From Flavobacteriaceae bacterium MAR_2010_72 (lineage in GTDB: Bacteria; Bacteroidota; Bacteroidia; Flavobacteriales; Flavobacteriaceae): DNA of 64,000 nucleotides. The position numbers were made by a program, and so were the translations under genes. Below, in pieces: positions 15,372 to 20,229 of the stretch. How positions within the stretch are numbered: the stretch's first letter is position 1; the number at the start of each line of letters is the position of its first letter. The notes beneath the pieces are model-generated. The model searched no databases and was not told the DNA's origin. It was given only the letters and a program-made list of their open reading frames with translations. The stretch spans positions 868,001-932,000 of the forward strand of contig QXCW01000002.1 of assembly GCA_003550275.1 (NCBI GenBank). The letters are read 5' to 3'.

Positions 15372-16292
15372 ATGAAAGTTACCGTAGTAGGAGCAGGAGC
15401 AGTAGGTGCTAGTTGTGCCGAATATATTGCCATCAAAGATTTTGCAAGTGAAGTGGTGTTATTAGATATTAAAGAGGGTTTTGCCGAAGGTAAAGCCATG
15501 GATTTAATGCAAACCGCTTCATTAAATGGGTTTGATACCAAAATCACAGGAGTTACAAATGACTATTCTAAAACCGCTAATAGTGATATTTGTGTGATTA
15601 CTTCTGGGATTCCTCGTAAACCTGGGATGACTCGTGAAGAATTGATTGGAATCAACGCAGGTATCGTAAAATCAGTGTCATCAAGTTTGATCGCACATTC
15701 TCCTAATACAATTTTAATTGTGGTAAGTAACCCTATGGATACTATGACCTATTTGGCGCACAAAGCAACGGGATTACCTAAACATAGAATTATTGGTATG
15801 GGTGGAGCTTTAGATTCTGCACGTTTTAAATACCGCTTGGGTGAAGCCTTGAATGCGCCAATTAGCGATGTTGATGGTATGGTCATTGGTGGACATAGTG
15901 ATACTGGAATGATTCCGTTAACACGTCTAGCGACTCGAAATAGCGTTCCTGTATCTAAATTCATGTCTTCAGAGCGTTTAGAGCAAGTAAAAGAAGATAC
16001 TAAAGTTGGAGGAGCTACTTTAACTAAATTATTAGGAACATCAGCTTGGTATGCACCAGGTGCTGCTGTAAGTGGATTGGTACAGGCTATTGCTTGTGAC
16101 CAAAACAAAATGTATCCATGTTCGGTCTTTTTAGAAGGTGAATATGGTATGAACGATATCTGTATCGGAGTGCCGGTTATTTTAGGAAGAAACGGAATAG
16201 AACGTATTGTTGAAATTGAATTGACCGACGCCGAAAAAACGAACATGCAAGAAAGTGCAGATGCCGTTAGAAAGGTAAACGATCTGTTGTAA
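15372..16292 (+). CDS. mdh: malate dehydrogenase
   Basis: A 306-residue NAD-dependent malate dehydrogenase of the LDH-like type, oxidising malate to oxaloacetate in the TCA cycle. The Rossmann motif VGAGAVGASCAE is at 6-17, Asp32 in LLDIKEG selects NAD over NADP, and the substrate loop shows SGIPRKPGMTREEL (Arg82 and Arg88 region). The catalytic His175 is in GGHSDTGMIP and the partner Asp is in SNPMDTMTY/DSARFKYRL. Own promoter and terminator, so monocistronic. Confidence 0.96.
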   Translation: MKVTVVGAGAVGASCAEYIAIKDFASEVVLLDIKEGFAEGKAMDLMQTASLNGFDTKITGVTNDYSKTANSDICVITSGIPRKPGMTREELIGINAGIVKSVSSSLIAHSPNTILIVVSNPMDTMTYLAHKATGLPKHRIIGMGGALDSARFKYRLGEALNAPISDVDGMVIGGHSDTGMIPLTRLATRNSVPVSKFMSSERLEQVKEDTKVGGATLTKLLGTSAWYAPGAAVSGLVQAIACDQNKMYPCSVFLEGEYGMNDICIGVPVILGRNGIERIVEIELTDAEKTNMQESADAVRKVNDLL

Positions 16293-16324
16293 TTTCCAAC
16301 TTCAAAAATTAAATTGATATTATA

Positions 16325-16356
16325 TAAAGACTGTAGAAATGCAGTCTTTATTTTTT
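16325..16356 (+). terminator. mdh terminator
   Basis: TAAAGACTG and CAGTCTTTA form a 9-bp stem with an 8-nt loop, followed by six T residues. The -7 element of the next gene starts 3 nt later, so terminator and promoter are packed together. Confidence 0.85.
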
Positions 16357-16358
16357 GT

Positions 16359-16366
16359 TATATTTG
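16359..16366 (+). promoter_or_regulatory. -7 promoter element (TATATTTG) of the SecD-like gene
   Basis: Exact TAnnTTTG match that ends 4 nt before the ATG at 16371, suggesting a leaderless mRNA. Confidence 0.6.
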
Positions 16367-16370
16367 GCGC

Positions 16371-17006
16371 ATGAATTCGAGATGGTACATCGGTACTTTA
16401 GTTATTTTACTTGCTTTTTTAGGGGTGGTTGCTAATCAGAAACAACAAGCACCTAATCAGGAAATTGTATTGCAATTTACTTCAGACGAAGTTACCTCTA
16501 ATGATACCCAAAGTGCACTTGATATTGTAAAAAAACAGTTGCGACGTGCAGGCGTTGATGATATTCACATTAGCGAGGAAAGCAATGGAAGCTTAAAAAT
16601 TACTTATTACAGTAATACAGATGTATCTAATATTAAAAAGATACTTCTAAATGATGATAGTTTGGATTTGGGCTGTGTTTCAACTCATGAAGACCAGCAG
16701 CCAATCCAACCACCTTCAGAGGACACCACTGTTACCTATAATCTCGATATTTACGAAATTCAAAAAGGTGACAATTCTGCATCAAGTTCTGCTGGAAAAT
16801 TTGCATTAGAAGCCAAATCTGAAAACAACAGGTTTGTGAACCCTAATTTTCATTTTTCATTTGATGACCTTGTTGTATTAAAAAGTGATGGAATAGCAAA
16901 AATATCCTCAAATTTCAAAATCAATAGTGTCGTTGTCTCTGGCAATAAGTCACATCAAATTCCCGAAGTAAGAGCGGGCCCTTTCAGCAATGGGATGGTT
17001 AGCTAA
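16371..17006 (+). CDS. small membrane-anchored SecD periplasmic-domain-like protein
   Basis: A 211-residue protein with one N-terminal membrane helix (about 6-21) and a periplasmic remainder. Residues 48-100 follow the SecD part of the neighbouring SecDF (residues 190-243) almost without gaps: SALDIVKKQLRRAGV here, SAFEVLRKRIDKFGV there, then a strand and DVSNIKKIL here, DVERIKKLL there. This region in SecD is the periplasmic P1 base. The remaining transmembrane domains of SecD are absent. I chose the ATG at 16371 over upstream non-ATG codons because a terminator hairpin lies at 16325-16350. It may be an accessory of SecDF; no function is proven. Confidence 0.7.
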   Translation: MNSRWYIGTLVILLAFLGVVANQKQQAPNQEIVLQFTSDEVTSNDTQSALDIVKKQLRRAGVDDIHISEESNGSLKITYYSNTDVSNIKKILLNDDSLDLGCVSTHEDQQPIQPPSEDTTVTYNLDIYEIQKGDNSASSSAGKFALEAKSENNRFVNPNFHFSFDDLVVLKSDGIAKISSNFKINSVVVSGNKSHQIPEVRAGPFSNGMVS

Positions 17007-17247
17007 GAATTTTTTACTGTTGAGGTTTTAATATAGTAAAATTTTAAAGCTTAAACATACTCCCACATTTCAAATCAAGAATGAATCGCATTAATCAACA
17101 GGTACACTTTGAGCCTAATCATTCTTAAAAGAGTTATATAGTTTGAATAAAAACTATTAACCATTTATATCATAAAAAATTAATTGTCAAATCCGCTGTA
17201 AATTCTATATTTGCGCGTTAAAAAAATTGACCTAAAAACATAAAATA
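17007..17247 (+). other. intergenic region upstream of secDF
   Basis: No ORF seen. A widely spaced inverted pair AAGAATGA / TCATTCTT lies near 17080-17130, of unclear meaning. The secDF promoter is at its right end. Confidence 0.5.
17184..17213 (+). promoter_or_regulatory. secDF promoter (-33 TTG and -7 TATATTTG)
   Basis: TTG at 17184-17186, a 19-nt spacer and TATATTTG at 17206-17213 match the Bacteroidota housekeeping promoter in both elements and spacing. The ATG is at 17248. Confidence 0.75.
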
Positions 17248-20229
17248 ATGCAAAACAAAGGATTAGTAAAGTTATTTGCGCTCTTATTTGGTTTGGTAAG
17301 TATTTACCAGCTTTCATTTACATTTAAAGCCAACCAGATAGAAGCCCAAGCCGAAGCATTTGCTGCAAGTAAATATGATGACCCAGATTTAATAAATGCT
17401 GAAGAAGTTAGGTATTTAGACTCCATTTCTAACAAAGAGGTTTTCAATATTCTAATTGCAAAATTCAGCTATAACGAAGTAAAAGAAAAATCAATGAATC
17501 TTGGTCTTGACCTAAAAGGTGGGATCAACGTTATTCTTGAAATTTCAGTAAAAGATATCTTAAAAGGTCTTGCAAATAATAGTAAAGACCCAGTTTTCAA
17601 CAAGGCTTTAGAAGATGCAGTTGAAATTCAAAAAGATGCTCAAGAGCCTTATTTGGAATCCTTTTTTACTGCATTTGATGCAATAAAGGGAGATACTAAA
17701 TTAGCTTCACCAGATATTTTTGCGAACAGAACGTTGGTTGATGATGTCGACATTTCAATGTCTGATGACCAAGTGAAGGAGGTACTTAAAACAAAAGTAG
17801 ACGAATCAATTGTTTCAGCTTTTGAAGTATTACGTAAACGTATAGATAAGTTTGGGGTTACGTCTCCAAATATCCAACGTTTAGGAAATTCTGGACGTAT
17901 TTTAGTGGAACTTCCTGGCGCCAAAGATGTTGAGCGTATTAAAAAGCTATTACAAAGTACCGCTCAATTGGAATTTTGGGATGTACTTAATGGACAAGAG
18001 CTTGGTGATTTCTTTGTACGAACAAATGAAACTTTAAAAGCTGTAGTTGGTGAGGAAAAGGCAGAGGCCGAAGTCGCTCAAGATTCTACTGCAACCGAAG
18101 AGAGTGCAGATAGTCAAATTGATGCCTTATTAGGTGATACTACTGCAAATGATTCCCTTCAACCACAAGGGGTCAATCCATTGTTTGATATGATTTATCC
18201 GCAAAGCGATCCTTCAGCATTATTTGCTGTTAAATCAGAAGATAAGGAAACTTTAGAGGCTTATTTAAAAATGCCTCAAGTAAGGGCTAATTTACCAGCA
18301 GAACAACGTTATACCAAATTTGCGTTTGGTCTACCAGAATTAAATAGTGAATCAGGTTTAGAAACTGTAAATGTTTATGCACTTATTGGTAATAGAGATA
18401 ATCAACCAGAATTAAGTGGAGCTGTTATTACCGATGCACGTCAGTCCTACAACAACCAAGGTAAGCCTTCGGTAAGTATGCAAATGAACGGAAAAGGTGC
18501 AAAAGTATGGGAAGCAATGACAGGAAGAGCATATACGCAACAAAGTCAAATTGCGATTGTGTTAGATGACATTGTATATTCTGCACCTGGTGTAACCACA
18601 GGCGCTATTTCTGGTGGAAATTCTGAAATTTCAGGATCGTTTACAGTTAATGAAGCGGTCGATTTAGCGAATGTATTGAGAGCAGGTAAATTACCAGCTT
18701 CAGCAGATATTGTACAAGCTGACGAGGTTGGAGCATCTTTAGGTAAAGAAGCCATAGATAGTGGTTCAAAATCATTTTTAATAGCCCTATCGTTAGTGCT
18801 AATATGGATGGTGCTCTACTACGGTAAATCTGGTGGTTTTGCTGATATAGCTTTATTACTCAATATCTTGTTAATCTTTGGTGTGCTTGCTGGTCTTGGA
18901 GCTGTGTTAACACTACCTGGACTTGCTGGTATCGTTTTAACTATTGGTATGTCGGTTGATGCGAACGTACTTATTTTTGAACGTGTACGAGAAGAAATTG
19001 GTAAAGGAAAAGGCCAAAAAGAAGCTGTTAAAGATGGTTTTGCAAACGCATTGTCTTCAATTTTGGACGCAAATATCACAACAGGATTAACGGCAATTAT
19101 ATTATTTGTGTTTGGTACGGGTCCGATTAAAGGGTTTGCTACCACGCTATTAATTGGTATTTTAACCTCGTTGTTTACGGCGATTTTCATTACTAGATTA
19201 TTAGTGGACTGGTACGTAAATAGAGGTGGTAAGTTAGACTTTTCAACTGCAATCACTAAAGGCTTCTTTAGAAACTCAAGCTTTAACTTTGTGAGCAAAC
19301 GTAAAGTGGCTTATGTGGTATCGAGTATTTTAATTATAGTAAGTTTAAGTTCATTATTTACAAAAGGTCTAGACCAAGGGATTGACTTTGTTGGAGGAAG
19401 AACCTATCAAGTTCGATTCGATCAAATTGTTAACCCAGAAACTGTAGTACAAGATTTGAATGCTACTTTTGGAAGTGCTGAAGTTAAAACTATTGGAAGT
19501 GCCAATCAGTTAAAAATTTCAACTAAATATAAAGTAGATGAAAATTCAGCTGAAGCAGATGAAGAAGTACAAACAATGCTTTTTGAAAGCTTAAAGCCGT
19601 ATTTGCCTGAAGGGATATCTTATACCGATTTTTCTGAAGGAAAAAATAATATAGGTAAAATGTATTCTAGTAAAGTGAGTCCAACTATTGCTGATGATAT
19701 CAAGAAAGAATCGTTTTGGGCGGTATTGGGATCACTTGTGGTTGTATTCCTTTACATCTTATTGCGATTCAAGAAATGGCAGTTCTCTTTGGGAGCGGTT
19801 TCTGCAGTGTTCCATGATGTTATTATTGTTTTGGGAGTATTCTCTTTAACCTATAAGTTTATGCCATTTAGTATGGAAATTGACCAAGCCTTCATAGCTG
19901 CAATTCTAACGGTGATTGGGTATTCGTTAAATGATACGGTTGTTGTGTTTGATAGAATTAGAGAGGTAATACTTGACAGAGGTGGCTTTAAAGGCGGTGT
20001 TAATATCAACTCGGCCATTAACAGCACATTGAGCAGAACATTAAACACCTCACTTACTACCTTAGTGGTGTTATTTGCGATGTTTACATTTGGAGCTGAT
20101 TCGTTACGAGGCCTTCTTTTTGCCTTAATTATTGGTATCGTTGTAGGTACGTATTCGTCCATATTTATTGCAACTCCAATTATGTACGATACTTTGAAGG
20201 ATAAAGGTGAAACACCTCAAGAGAAATAA
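17248..20229 (+). CDS. secDF: fused protein translocase subunit SecDF
   Basis: A 993-residue fusion of SecD and SecF, inner-membrane proteins that use the proton gradient to help Sec-translocated proteins leave the channel. SecD: first membrane helix (about 7-23), LGLDLKGGINVILEI, the P1 domain (about 165-510) with ELPGAKD, then TM helices with GMSVDANVLIFERVREE. SecF: second half starting near 690 with LDQGIDFVGGRTYQVRF and GYSLNDTVVVFDRIRE. An acidic Ser/Thr/Ala-rich insert (about 266-305) lies in the SecD periplasmic part. Such fusions are normal in Bacteroidota. Own promoter and terminator. Confidence 0.96.
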   Translation: MQNKGLVKLFALLFGLVSIYQLSFTFKANQIEAQAEAFAASKYDDPDLINAEEVRYLDSISNKEVFNILIAKFSYNEVKEKSMNLGLDLKGGINVILEISVKDILKGLANNSKDPVFNKALEDAVEIQKDAQEPYLESFFTAFDAIKGDTKLASPDIFANRTLVDDVDISMSDDQVKEVLKTKVDESIVSAFEVLRKRIDKFGVTSPNIQRLGNSGRILVELPGAKDVERIKKLLQSTAQLEFWDVLNGQELGDFFVRTNETLKAVVGEEKAEAEVAQDSTATEESADSQIDALLGDTTANDSLQPQGVNPLFDMIYPQSDPSALFAVKSEDKETLEAYLKMPQVRANLPAEQRYTKFAFGLPELNSESGLETVNVYALIGNRDNQPELSGAVITDARQSYNNQGKPSVSMQMNGKGAKVWEAMTGRAYTQQSQIAIVLDDIVYSAPGVTTGAISGGNSEISGSFTVNEAVDLANVLRAGKLPASADIVQADEVGASLGKEAIDSGSKSFLIALSLVLIWMVLYYGKSGGFADIALLLNILLIFGVLAGLGAVLTLPGLAGIVLTIGMSVDANVLIFERVREEIGKGKGQKEAVKDGFANALSSILDANITTGLTAIILFVFGTGPIKGFATTLLIGILTSLFTAIFITRLLVDWYVNRGGKLDFSTAITKGFFRNSSFNFVSKRKVAYVVSSILIIVSLSSLFTKGLDQGIDFVGGRTYQVRFDQIVNPETVVQDLNATFGSAEVKTIGSANQLKISTKYKVDENSAEADEEVQTMLFESLKPYLPEGISYTDFSEGKNNIGKMYSSKVSPTIADDIKKESFWAVLGSLVVVFLYILLRFKKWQFSLGAVSAVFHDVIIVLGVFSLTYKFMPFSMEIDQAFIAAILTVIGYSLNDTVVVFDRIREVILDRGGFKGGVNINSAINSTLSRTLNTSLTTLVVLFAMFTFGADSLRGLLFALIIGIVVGTYSSIFIATPIMYDTLKDKGETPQEK

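Follow-up and report, generated by a model that had tools for sequence, protein, structure and literature searches.

A gene for a putative translation-arrest peptide related to the P1 domain of SecD precedes secDF in Flavobacteriaceae

Introduction

What is the function of the small gene that precedes secDF in Flavobacteriaceae bacterium MAR_2010_72 and in many of its relatives? In the window, the stretch of 64,000 nucleotides that we analysed (positions 868,001 to 932,000 of contig QXCW01000002.1), an open reading frame with an ATG start at 16371..17006 encodes a protein of 211 residues, here called X. It is followed by secDF (17248..20229, 993 aa), which scores 1371.2 bits with NF009585 against a cut-off of 1037. 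All features of the window described below lie on its + strand and are given in its coordinates. A sequence-only reading of this DNA had noticed that part of X resembles SecD, and had proposed that X is a stand-alone, membrane-tethered P1 base that modulates SecDF or binds its clients. From its homologs, its profile matches and a C-terminal RAGP motif, we annotate X as a putative translation-arrest peptide derived from SecD P1.

The X gene and its neighbours

The 211-residue frame described earlier is real, and its N-terminal helix was recovered by secondary structure prediction at residues 4-21 (16380..16433), where it is hydrophobic by inspection and could serve as a signal anchor or a signal sequence. 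X is a single-copy gene in the window's own genome. Of 299 family genomes, 116 (in 93 of 236 genera) yielded a homolog, with Psychroserpens, Gelidibacter, Flavivirga, Aquimarina, Algibacter and Formosa among the named relatives. The names of the homologs are mostly those of Flavobacteriaceae genera (Psychroserpens and Aquimarina were looked up and belong to this family), and two are named only 'Bacteroidia'. Searches of the order (395 genomes) and of the phylum (296 genomes) gave no convincing X outside the family; viral contigs contained no relatives, and a PDB sequence search with X gave 0 matches.

Gene order was compared in 70 of the 116 X genomes (loci L001-L070, the best 50 plus 20 weaker matches). 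X was accompanied by a downstream secDF on the same strand in 68 of the 70, and 65 of the 70 had the upstream neighbour seen in the window, a dehydrogenase gene (15372..16292, 306 aa) that we presume to be mdh and refer to by that name. A terminator-like hairpin of 12 pairs with a T tail follows mdh at 16324..16351 (one found, against a mean of 0.5 in shuffled sequences), and a similar one is visible after mdh in many relatives. Two overlapping sets of loci from two sources together comprise 149 loci with 130 distinct proteins, which are related and so do not represent independent lineages; in 148 of these 149, X and secDF are separated by 102-284 nt (median 187), and the neighbourhood that was to be checked is thus conserved. 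The exception, L060, carries X on a contig that ends before secDF. One further locus, L061 (G113, first match 7.9e-13), was missed by the stricter tblastn and lies outside the 149, yet it is labelled as X-bearing in the SecDF tree described below. Counts for named loci refer to the 80 kept of 124, to which some X loci from the order-wide search were not added.

Relationship of X to the SecD P1 domain

The similarity that had first drawn attention to X was reproduced by BLASTP against the window's SecDF, which aligned residues 48-100 with SecDF 190-243 with one gap, though only at an E value of 0.017. A stronger match, which the earlier reading had missed, emerged in another part of the protein when profiles were compared with hhalign: X (69 sequences) aligned over residues 125-210 with residues 374-459 of SecDF (39 sequences) at a probability of 88.6 (P 2.7e-6), and in the same comparison the N-terminal half, X 31-100 on SecDF 166-243, was colinear but weak (probability 3.0, P 0.015). 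The head match scored 51.5; none of 300 column shuffles scored above 25.3, and reversed columns gave 21.8. The N-terminal half, with a score of 24.7 (probability 6.8%) against a shuffle maximum of 21.1 (300 column shuffles), was weak but above chance. When the SecD P1 alignment was broadened to 54 rows, the probability rose to 93.8 (P 1.7e-7). The alignments were subsets of those collected (A1, 49 of 69 X; A3, the window plus 61 of 80; A4, 54 of 79; A5, 17 of 19; A6, 60 of 83 distinct rows).

Residues 125-204 of X (16743..16982) align without a gap with SecDF 374-453 and appear to be a truncated region from the P1 head; RAGP of X lies over SecDF residues 450-453, which read TTGA in the window (codons at 18595..18606). 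Upstream of this region, X 72-124 followed the part of SecD just before the head, not the base, in the 54-row comparison, and the X of L017 aligned with the SecDF model as 72-198 on 318-442. Since different comparisons align it with different parts of SecD, the placement of X 72-124 is ambiguous.

In searches with family models, the X of L017 matched the NCBIfam models SecDF (8e-7) and secD (2.2e-5) over residues 37-198, below the curated cut-offs. Two NCBIfam SecD models each matched 12 of 49 X members at E <= 0.01, the window's X not among them, and no unrelated NCBIfam model matched more than 2 of the 49. The window's X falls below every Pfam and NCBIfam cut-off, with no Pfam SecD match and an NCBIfam secD score of 15 bits against 244; no SecD P1 family was among the Pfam matches listed for the 49 members (25 of 30 families), and SecD-TM1 matched 3 of 49. 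When whole genomes were searched with the X profile, the long frames (784-1001 aa) found besides X were SecDF in 14 of 14 loci checked, a count that excludes long-frame matches without a checked locus, such as those in G156, G624, G010, G417 and G328. In the reverse direction, a SecD profile reached X in one of 24 X genomes (G247, E 2.9e-8) and did not reach it in the other 23 at E up to 10.

Columns ~40-103 of the X profile matched proteins in whole genomes that we take, by eye and without a domain scan, to be ParB-like, and did so better (E 8e-5) than they matched SecD (E 1e-3). The SecD base was therefore rejected as the sole identification of X. As an observation in its own right, the look-alike unit in these proteins is a C-terminal domain of the type GGEIKIEYYS..DLERIL and was matched at L095, L100, L102, L104, L106, L113 and L116. 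The resemblance to SecD P1 claimed by the sequence-only reading thus holds at the level of profile-profile comparison, where the match is colinear and above shuffled controls, but the segment 48-100 on which it was based is by itself not specific for SecD. Judged from these alignments, X is related to SecD P1 through a colinear base and head, of which the head part is strong and the base part weak.

A structure model of X built on a 62-row alignment (mean pLDDT 56.6) consists of the helix at the N-terminus, a beta-alpha-beta-beta-alpha unit modelled with confidence (pLDDT 82-87 in the blocks of 31-90) and a strand at 123-129 (block 121-130, pLDDT 81), and residues 133-200 have a pLDDT below 50. 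VIA-align related this model to SecDF P1 (3aqo, Z 7.2 at 17% identity; 5yhf, Z 6.8), which tied with other ferredoxin-like folds including S6, with rows up to Z 8.1; Foldseek returned nothing at E <= 0.001, and SecDF was absent from its best 50 matches. The model agrees with a P1 base without proving it, and together with the 3aqo match and the score of the N-terminal half it led us to annotate residues ~26-131 (16446..16763) as a P1-base-like, ferredoxin-type domain. Positions N29, Q30, L57, Y79 and S81 of this predicted base are invariant or nearly so. Conservation across the base is fair, so that X may have a role as a protein too.

The conserved C-terminal motif

The strongest constraint on X lies near its C-terminus, in the RAGP of residues 201-204 (16971..16982), a putative arrest site. 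RAGP occurs shortly before the stop codon in all 149 homologs (130 distinct; 69 of 69 and 80 of 80 when counted separately), in 125 of them as PEVRAGP, and the frame is open up to the stop in all 149 loci. Per-residue conservation is 1.0 for each of the R, A, G and P, 0.99 for P198 and 0.90 for V200, and only 0.04-0.30 past Pro204, such that the peak comprises the seven residues P198-P204. The Gly of RAGP is found at residue 175-212 (median 201) across the homologs, and about 180 residues separate the N-terminal helix from the arrest site in X. Among the 80 named loci, all six Arg codons are used for the Arg of RAGP, the position after the Pro is unconstrained and carries 28 different codons, and exactly two residues follow RAGP in 54. 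This free choice of the Arg codon, combined with the unconstrained codon after the Pro, points to selection on the peptide that ends at the putative A-site residue.

RAGP was found in 0 of 54 SecD P1 rows and in 0 of 17 rows of the P1 lipoproteins described below; the place in SecD that lies under it reads (T/S)(T/S)G(P/A) in 35 of the 54. A Gly stands at +4 in 29 of the 53 X tails with at least four residues, at a place where SecD reads GPISGG, and is likely a relic of that sequence. From these alignments we infer that X arose by duplication of the P1 part of secD, followed by truncation and then by gain of the Arg: the duplicate (base plus part of the head) would have been cut after the strand 'IAIVLDNxVYSAPGVxxGP', and a local TTGP-like sequence would have become RAGP. 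By analogy with known systems, a RAGP of this kind in front of secDF is a hallmark of export monitors that act through translation arrest.

P1 lipoproteins beside X

Genuine stand-alone P1 proteins of the kind envisaged by the sequence-only reading are encoded in some relatives: a lipoprotein-like ORF of ~305 aa lies between mdh and X and has a P1 base and a complete P1 head; its start is, as we judge it, lipobox-like. PF22599 matched five of five tested (5e-20 to 2e-15), and PF21760 matched two of the five (2e-6 and 0.003), one of them over the cut-off. Among ORFs ending within 1800 nt before X (L001-L030 offering only ~1500 nt of flank), the 149 X loci contain 19 long ones (18 distinct), always between mdh and X, and pieces were found in the same position in three further loci, L023, L027 and L191; five pieces below 290 aa, of 24 lipoprotein ORFs, were left out of the comparison. 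The lipoprotein lies almost 900 nt from X in L155 and L196. A whole-genome scan found lipoprotein frames of 309-329 aa in at least 7 of 299 genomes, and in the window's genome the SecD P1 profile matched SecDF alone at E up to 10, which leaves that genome without a P1 lipoprotein.

X aligned with the lipoprotein from end to end (residues 1-210 to 1-271, probability 97.9, P 6.2e-13), with its RAGP lying over TAGP in L010, SAGP in L018, and SSGP and SSGA in several others; the L010 lipoprotein reads YSAPGVTAGPIRGG opposite HQIPEVRAGP of X.

Such ORFs, which have no motor helices, stand beside X at L017:398-1336, L018:497-1417, L131:3550-4464 and elsewhere. At L027:527-1446 and L191:3527-4446 the lipoprotein reading is divided between overlapping ORFs of 245 and 76 aa, through frameshift or decay, and only a 72-aa piece is left in L023. 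In G197 (L242, 4660-5601, minus strand), one of the genomes found by the whole-genome scan, a P1 lipoprotein-like ORF occurs alone between mdh and secDF, giving the order mdh - lipoprotein - secDF with X undetected. We considered this arrangement as a candidate for the ancestral state and rejected it: the SecDF of G197 nests among those of X-bearing genomes, and loss of X is therefore the simpler explanation.

X-less genomes and the evolution of X

For comparison, 65 genomes were searched, 64 of which had a SecDF match, and 40 X-less loci were taken (39 from the family and one from the order). In 28 of these 40, mdh lies upstream of secDF, and no X-like ending was present among the listed ORFs of at least 45 aa before secDF. 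Two X-less genomes (L206:1264-1929, reverse complement, and L207:1267-1929) have a different protein of ~220 aa between mdh and secDF, with a signal-like N-terminus. The C-termini of these proteins read TNNLNGI and TDNLQGM, in which we recognise no arrest motif known to us.

On a tree of 80 SecDF proteins, 40 of them from genomes with X, the X label requires 13 changes, at least 10 of which are forced by starred branches. The tree cannot tell gain from loss; the homology among the X proteins makes a single old origin followed by many losses the simpler account.

Putative promoters and a foldable element upstream of secDF

A putative -7 promoter element of the Bacteroidota type, TATATTTG (16359..16366), ends 4 nt before the start of X, and TAnnTTTG, which matches the consensus of that element (PMC6847099), ends exactly 4 nt before the X start codon in 120 of 149 loci. 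The X mRNA is therefore predicted to be leaderless or nearly so. Counting against this promoter, a -33 TTG at a spacing of 17-23 nt was present in only 9 of the 149. In F. johnsoniae, 87% of predicted transcripts have leaders longer than 10 nt (PMC6847099).

A putative promoter of secDF itself, TTG N19 TATATTTG, lies at 17184..17213. The pattern TTG-N17-23-TAnnTTTG occurs in 93 of 148 X-secDF gaps, compared with 1.1 in mononucleotide shuffles, and within 110 nt of secDF it is found in 91 of 148 X loci and in 35 of 40 X-less loci. About one third of X loci thus lack a visible secDF promoter and may depend on read-through from X, and the lower frequency in X loci would be expected if such read-through feeds secDF.

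This promoter is overlapped by a foldable inverted repeat (17180..17231), which in the window has imperfect outer arms of the GTCAAAT/ATTTGAC type and an inner hairpin GTAAAT/ATTTGC. Relative to shuffled sequence, the 80 nt before secDF are more stably folded in X loci, with a mean z of -2.39 (81% below -1.5; 68 of 148 loci scanned, from L001-L070), against 0.02 in the 40 X-less loci (5% below -1.5), a difference with a Mann-Whitney P of 1.6e-14 that ignores relatedness; over 110 nt the means are -1.8 (148 X loci) and 0.05 (40 X-less loci). Perfect arms of at least 7 bases that end 6-32 nt before secDF were found in 78 of 148 X loci; 28.5 would be expected, and none of 20 shuffles exceeded 36. 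The X-less loci gave 8 of 40, with 7.9 expected. The arms vary between loci (GTCAAAT/ATTTGAC, GTCAAAC/GTTTGAC, GTCGAATA/TATTCGAC and GTAACAA/TTGTTAC). RNAalifold found no consensus pairs in 60 aligned elements; covariation is weak because most pairs of the 7-pair outer stem hardly vary among the named loci, and the evidence for the element consists of folding energy and arm counts. The rest of the gap, too, folds slightly more stably than expected by chance, above all immediately behind the arrest codons, where the mean z at +20 to +80 is -1.63; in windows starting at +40 to +160 it is about -0.7 to -1.2, each in at most 80 loci, 80 of 148 having been scanned over the gap. This folding could supply alternative pairs.

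The whole element would be present in an mRNA reading through from X into secDF; transcripts started at the secDF promoter would include just its 3' part. A ribosome stalled at the arrest site could not touch the element directly, as this site lies ~190 nt from the secDF start. None of the 148 secDF leaders, and just one of the 149 in front of X, has GGAG, GAGG or AGGA within 20 nt. In this phylum SD sequences are naturally missing, and mRNA structure tunes initiation in F. johnsoniae (PMC6847099).

Proposed function of X

We consider it highly probable that X is a cis-acting export monitor of secDF of the SecM/VemP type, descended from a truncated SecD P1 duplicate. By analogy with those systems, X would go to the Sec translocon through its N-terminal hydrophobic segment, the ribosome would stall at IPEVRAGP, Gly203 occupying the P site and Pro204 the A site, and the pull of export on the X chain would free it; at low export or SecDF capacity, stalling on X would then increase expression of the downstream secDF. 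In favour of this reading are the invariant RAGP, the steady position of X before secDF, the long spacer, the relationship to SecD and the difference in pre-secDF folding between X and X-less loci. Several points count against such a monitor. Most X loci (93 of 148) have a likely secDF promoter of their own behind X, the stall site is too far from the foldable element for direct contact, and RNAalifold gave that element no consensus stem. In addition, the representative of uDF_RQH_Flavobacteriales, a group of arrest peptides discussed below, stalls B. subtilis ribosomes efficiently in vitro and E. coli ribosomes less (PMC10987492).

The proposal that X works as a protein, a tethered P1 base with SecDF or its clients (such as T9SS cargo) as targets, draws on the relatedness to SecD, on the confident ferredoxin-like base in the model and on the near-invariant base positions. 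We nevertheless regard it as unlikely, because the foremost constraint on X is the C-terminal RAGP at the end of the P198-P204 peak, just before a free tail, and a folded P1 domain would not require it; in addition, X runs on into a truncated head that is predicted at very low confidence, and known analogues act in cis. The sequence-only reading was right in its observation, which it understated by overlooking the head match and the invariant RAGP, and probably wrong in the function that it proposed. Far less credible still, indeed hardly so, is the reading of X as a SecD duplicate in decay that kept RAGP by chance. The truncated domain and the repeated gain or loss of X on the SecDF tree would suit decay, but RAGP in 149 of 149 homologs with every frame open to the stop, its conservation at the protein level under free codon choice, and its absence from the SecD and P1-lipoprotein rows all argue against it.

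The two activities could also be combined, in that X stalls in cis and the folding of its SecD-like base outside the membrane, or the binding of that base to SecDF, pulls the stall free. At the stall, about 70 residues (131-203), mostly the low-confidence stretch, would separate the base from the P site, and the ribosome tunnel and the translocon together hold roughly 70 residues. For VemP, contact with the P1 head of SecD has been proposed as part of its release (PMC11470409). Against this, the base may be a mere relic, and we give the combination appreciable but less than even weight. With the same reserve we put forward a tentative account in which the (T/S)(T/S)GP turn of a truncated SecD P1 duplicate became RAGP and the base still folds at or engages SecDF, whose activity would release the stall, making X a read-out of SecDF capacity that sets secDF expression.

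An export monitor of this descent would bear on the origins of arrest peptides, for here a widespread family would have a traceable parent in the very gene it precedes, and since SecD would show the residues from which the arrest motif came, the birth of a stalling motif becomes testable. The family further suggests a sensor that mimics the part of the motor it monitors. The Flavobacteriaceae export heavily through Sec and T9SS, and X points to a regulatory input into SecDF in this group.

Comparison with known arrest peptides

An arrest-peptide monitor before secDF is of a known kind; one that descends from a domain of its own target would be new, as far as the literature we searched goes. 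That search covered few subscription journals and had bioRxiv outside its scope, and within it we found no report of SecD ancestry for any arrest peptide.

RAPP-like uORFs before secDF are an established class. In a screen of 30,175 genomes for Sec-related uORFs (PMC10987492), Fujiwara et al. (2024) named the group uDF_RQH_Flavobacteriales, which like X consists of Flavobacteriales uORFs of secDF with a RAPP-like C-terminal motif. The four sequence features used there to recognise such peptides recur in X, which is a small uORF of secDF without annotated function, with an N-terminal signal or transmembrane segment (helix 4-21, recognised by model and inspection, a weaker test than that of the paper), a conserved C-terminal sequence followed by a free tail, and a spacer between signal and arrest site far longer than the >30 residues required. 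RQH arrest peptides are described there as stalling with the third motif residue in the P site; their groups are defined by motif and order, with no overall similarity among members, and repeated independent emergence is favoured (PMC10987492). On the basis of motif and gene order, the X family is very probably uDF_RQH_Flavobacteriales. For that group, the accessible text speaks neither of homology to SecD nor of a neighbouring P1 lipoprotein or an RNA element (PMC10987492).

SecM of E. coli (secM-secA), which is exported and regulates a Sec gene in cis, likewise has RAGP, the core of its arrest motif, a few residues before its stop. However, X shares only RAGP with the SecM motif FxxxxWIxxxxGIRAGP, in which F, W and GI are replaced (V188, K193, E199 and V200), and X precedes secDF whereas SecM precedes secA; to our knowledge SecM has no SecD-like domain. 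VemP of Vibrio is encoded upstream of secD2F2; it is exported and its arrest controls secDF, but its arrest motif is different (RxxxWKxxNxxY-like), and the window's X has a single Trp, at residue 5. With the P1 domain of SecD and SecDF (PF21760 plus PF22599), X shares the colinear similarity of base and head; it differs from it in having no end of the head, no motor helices and no SecF, and in carrying RAGP in place of (T/S)(T/S)G(P/A).
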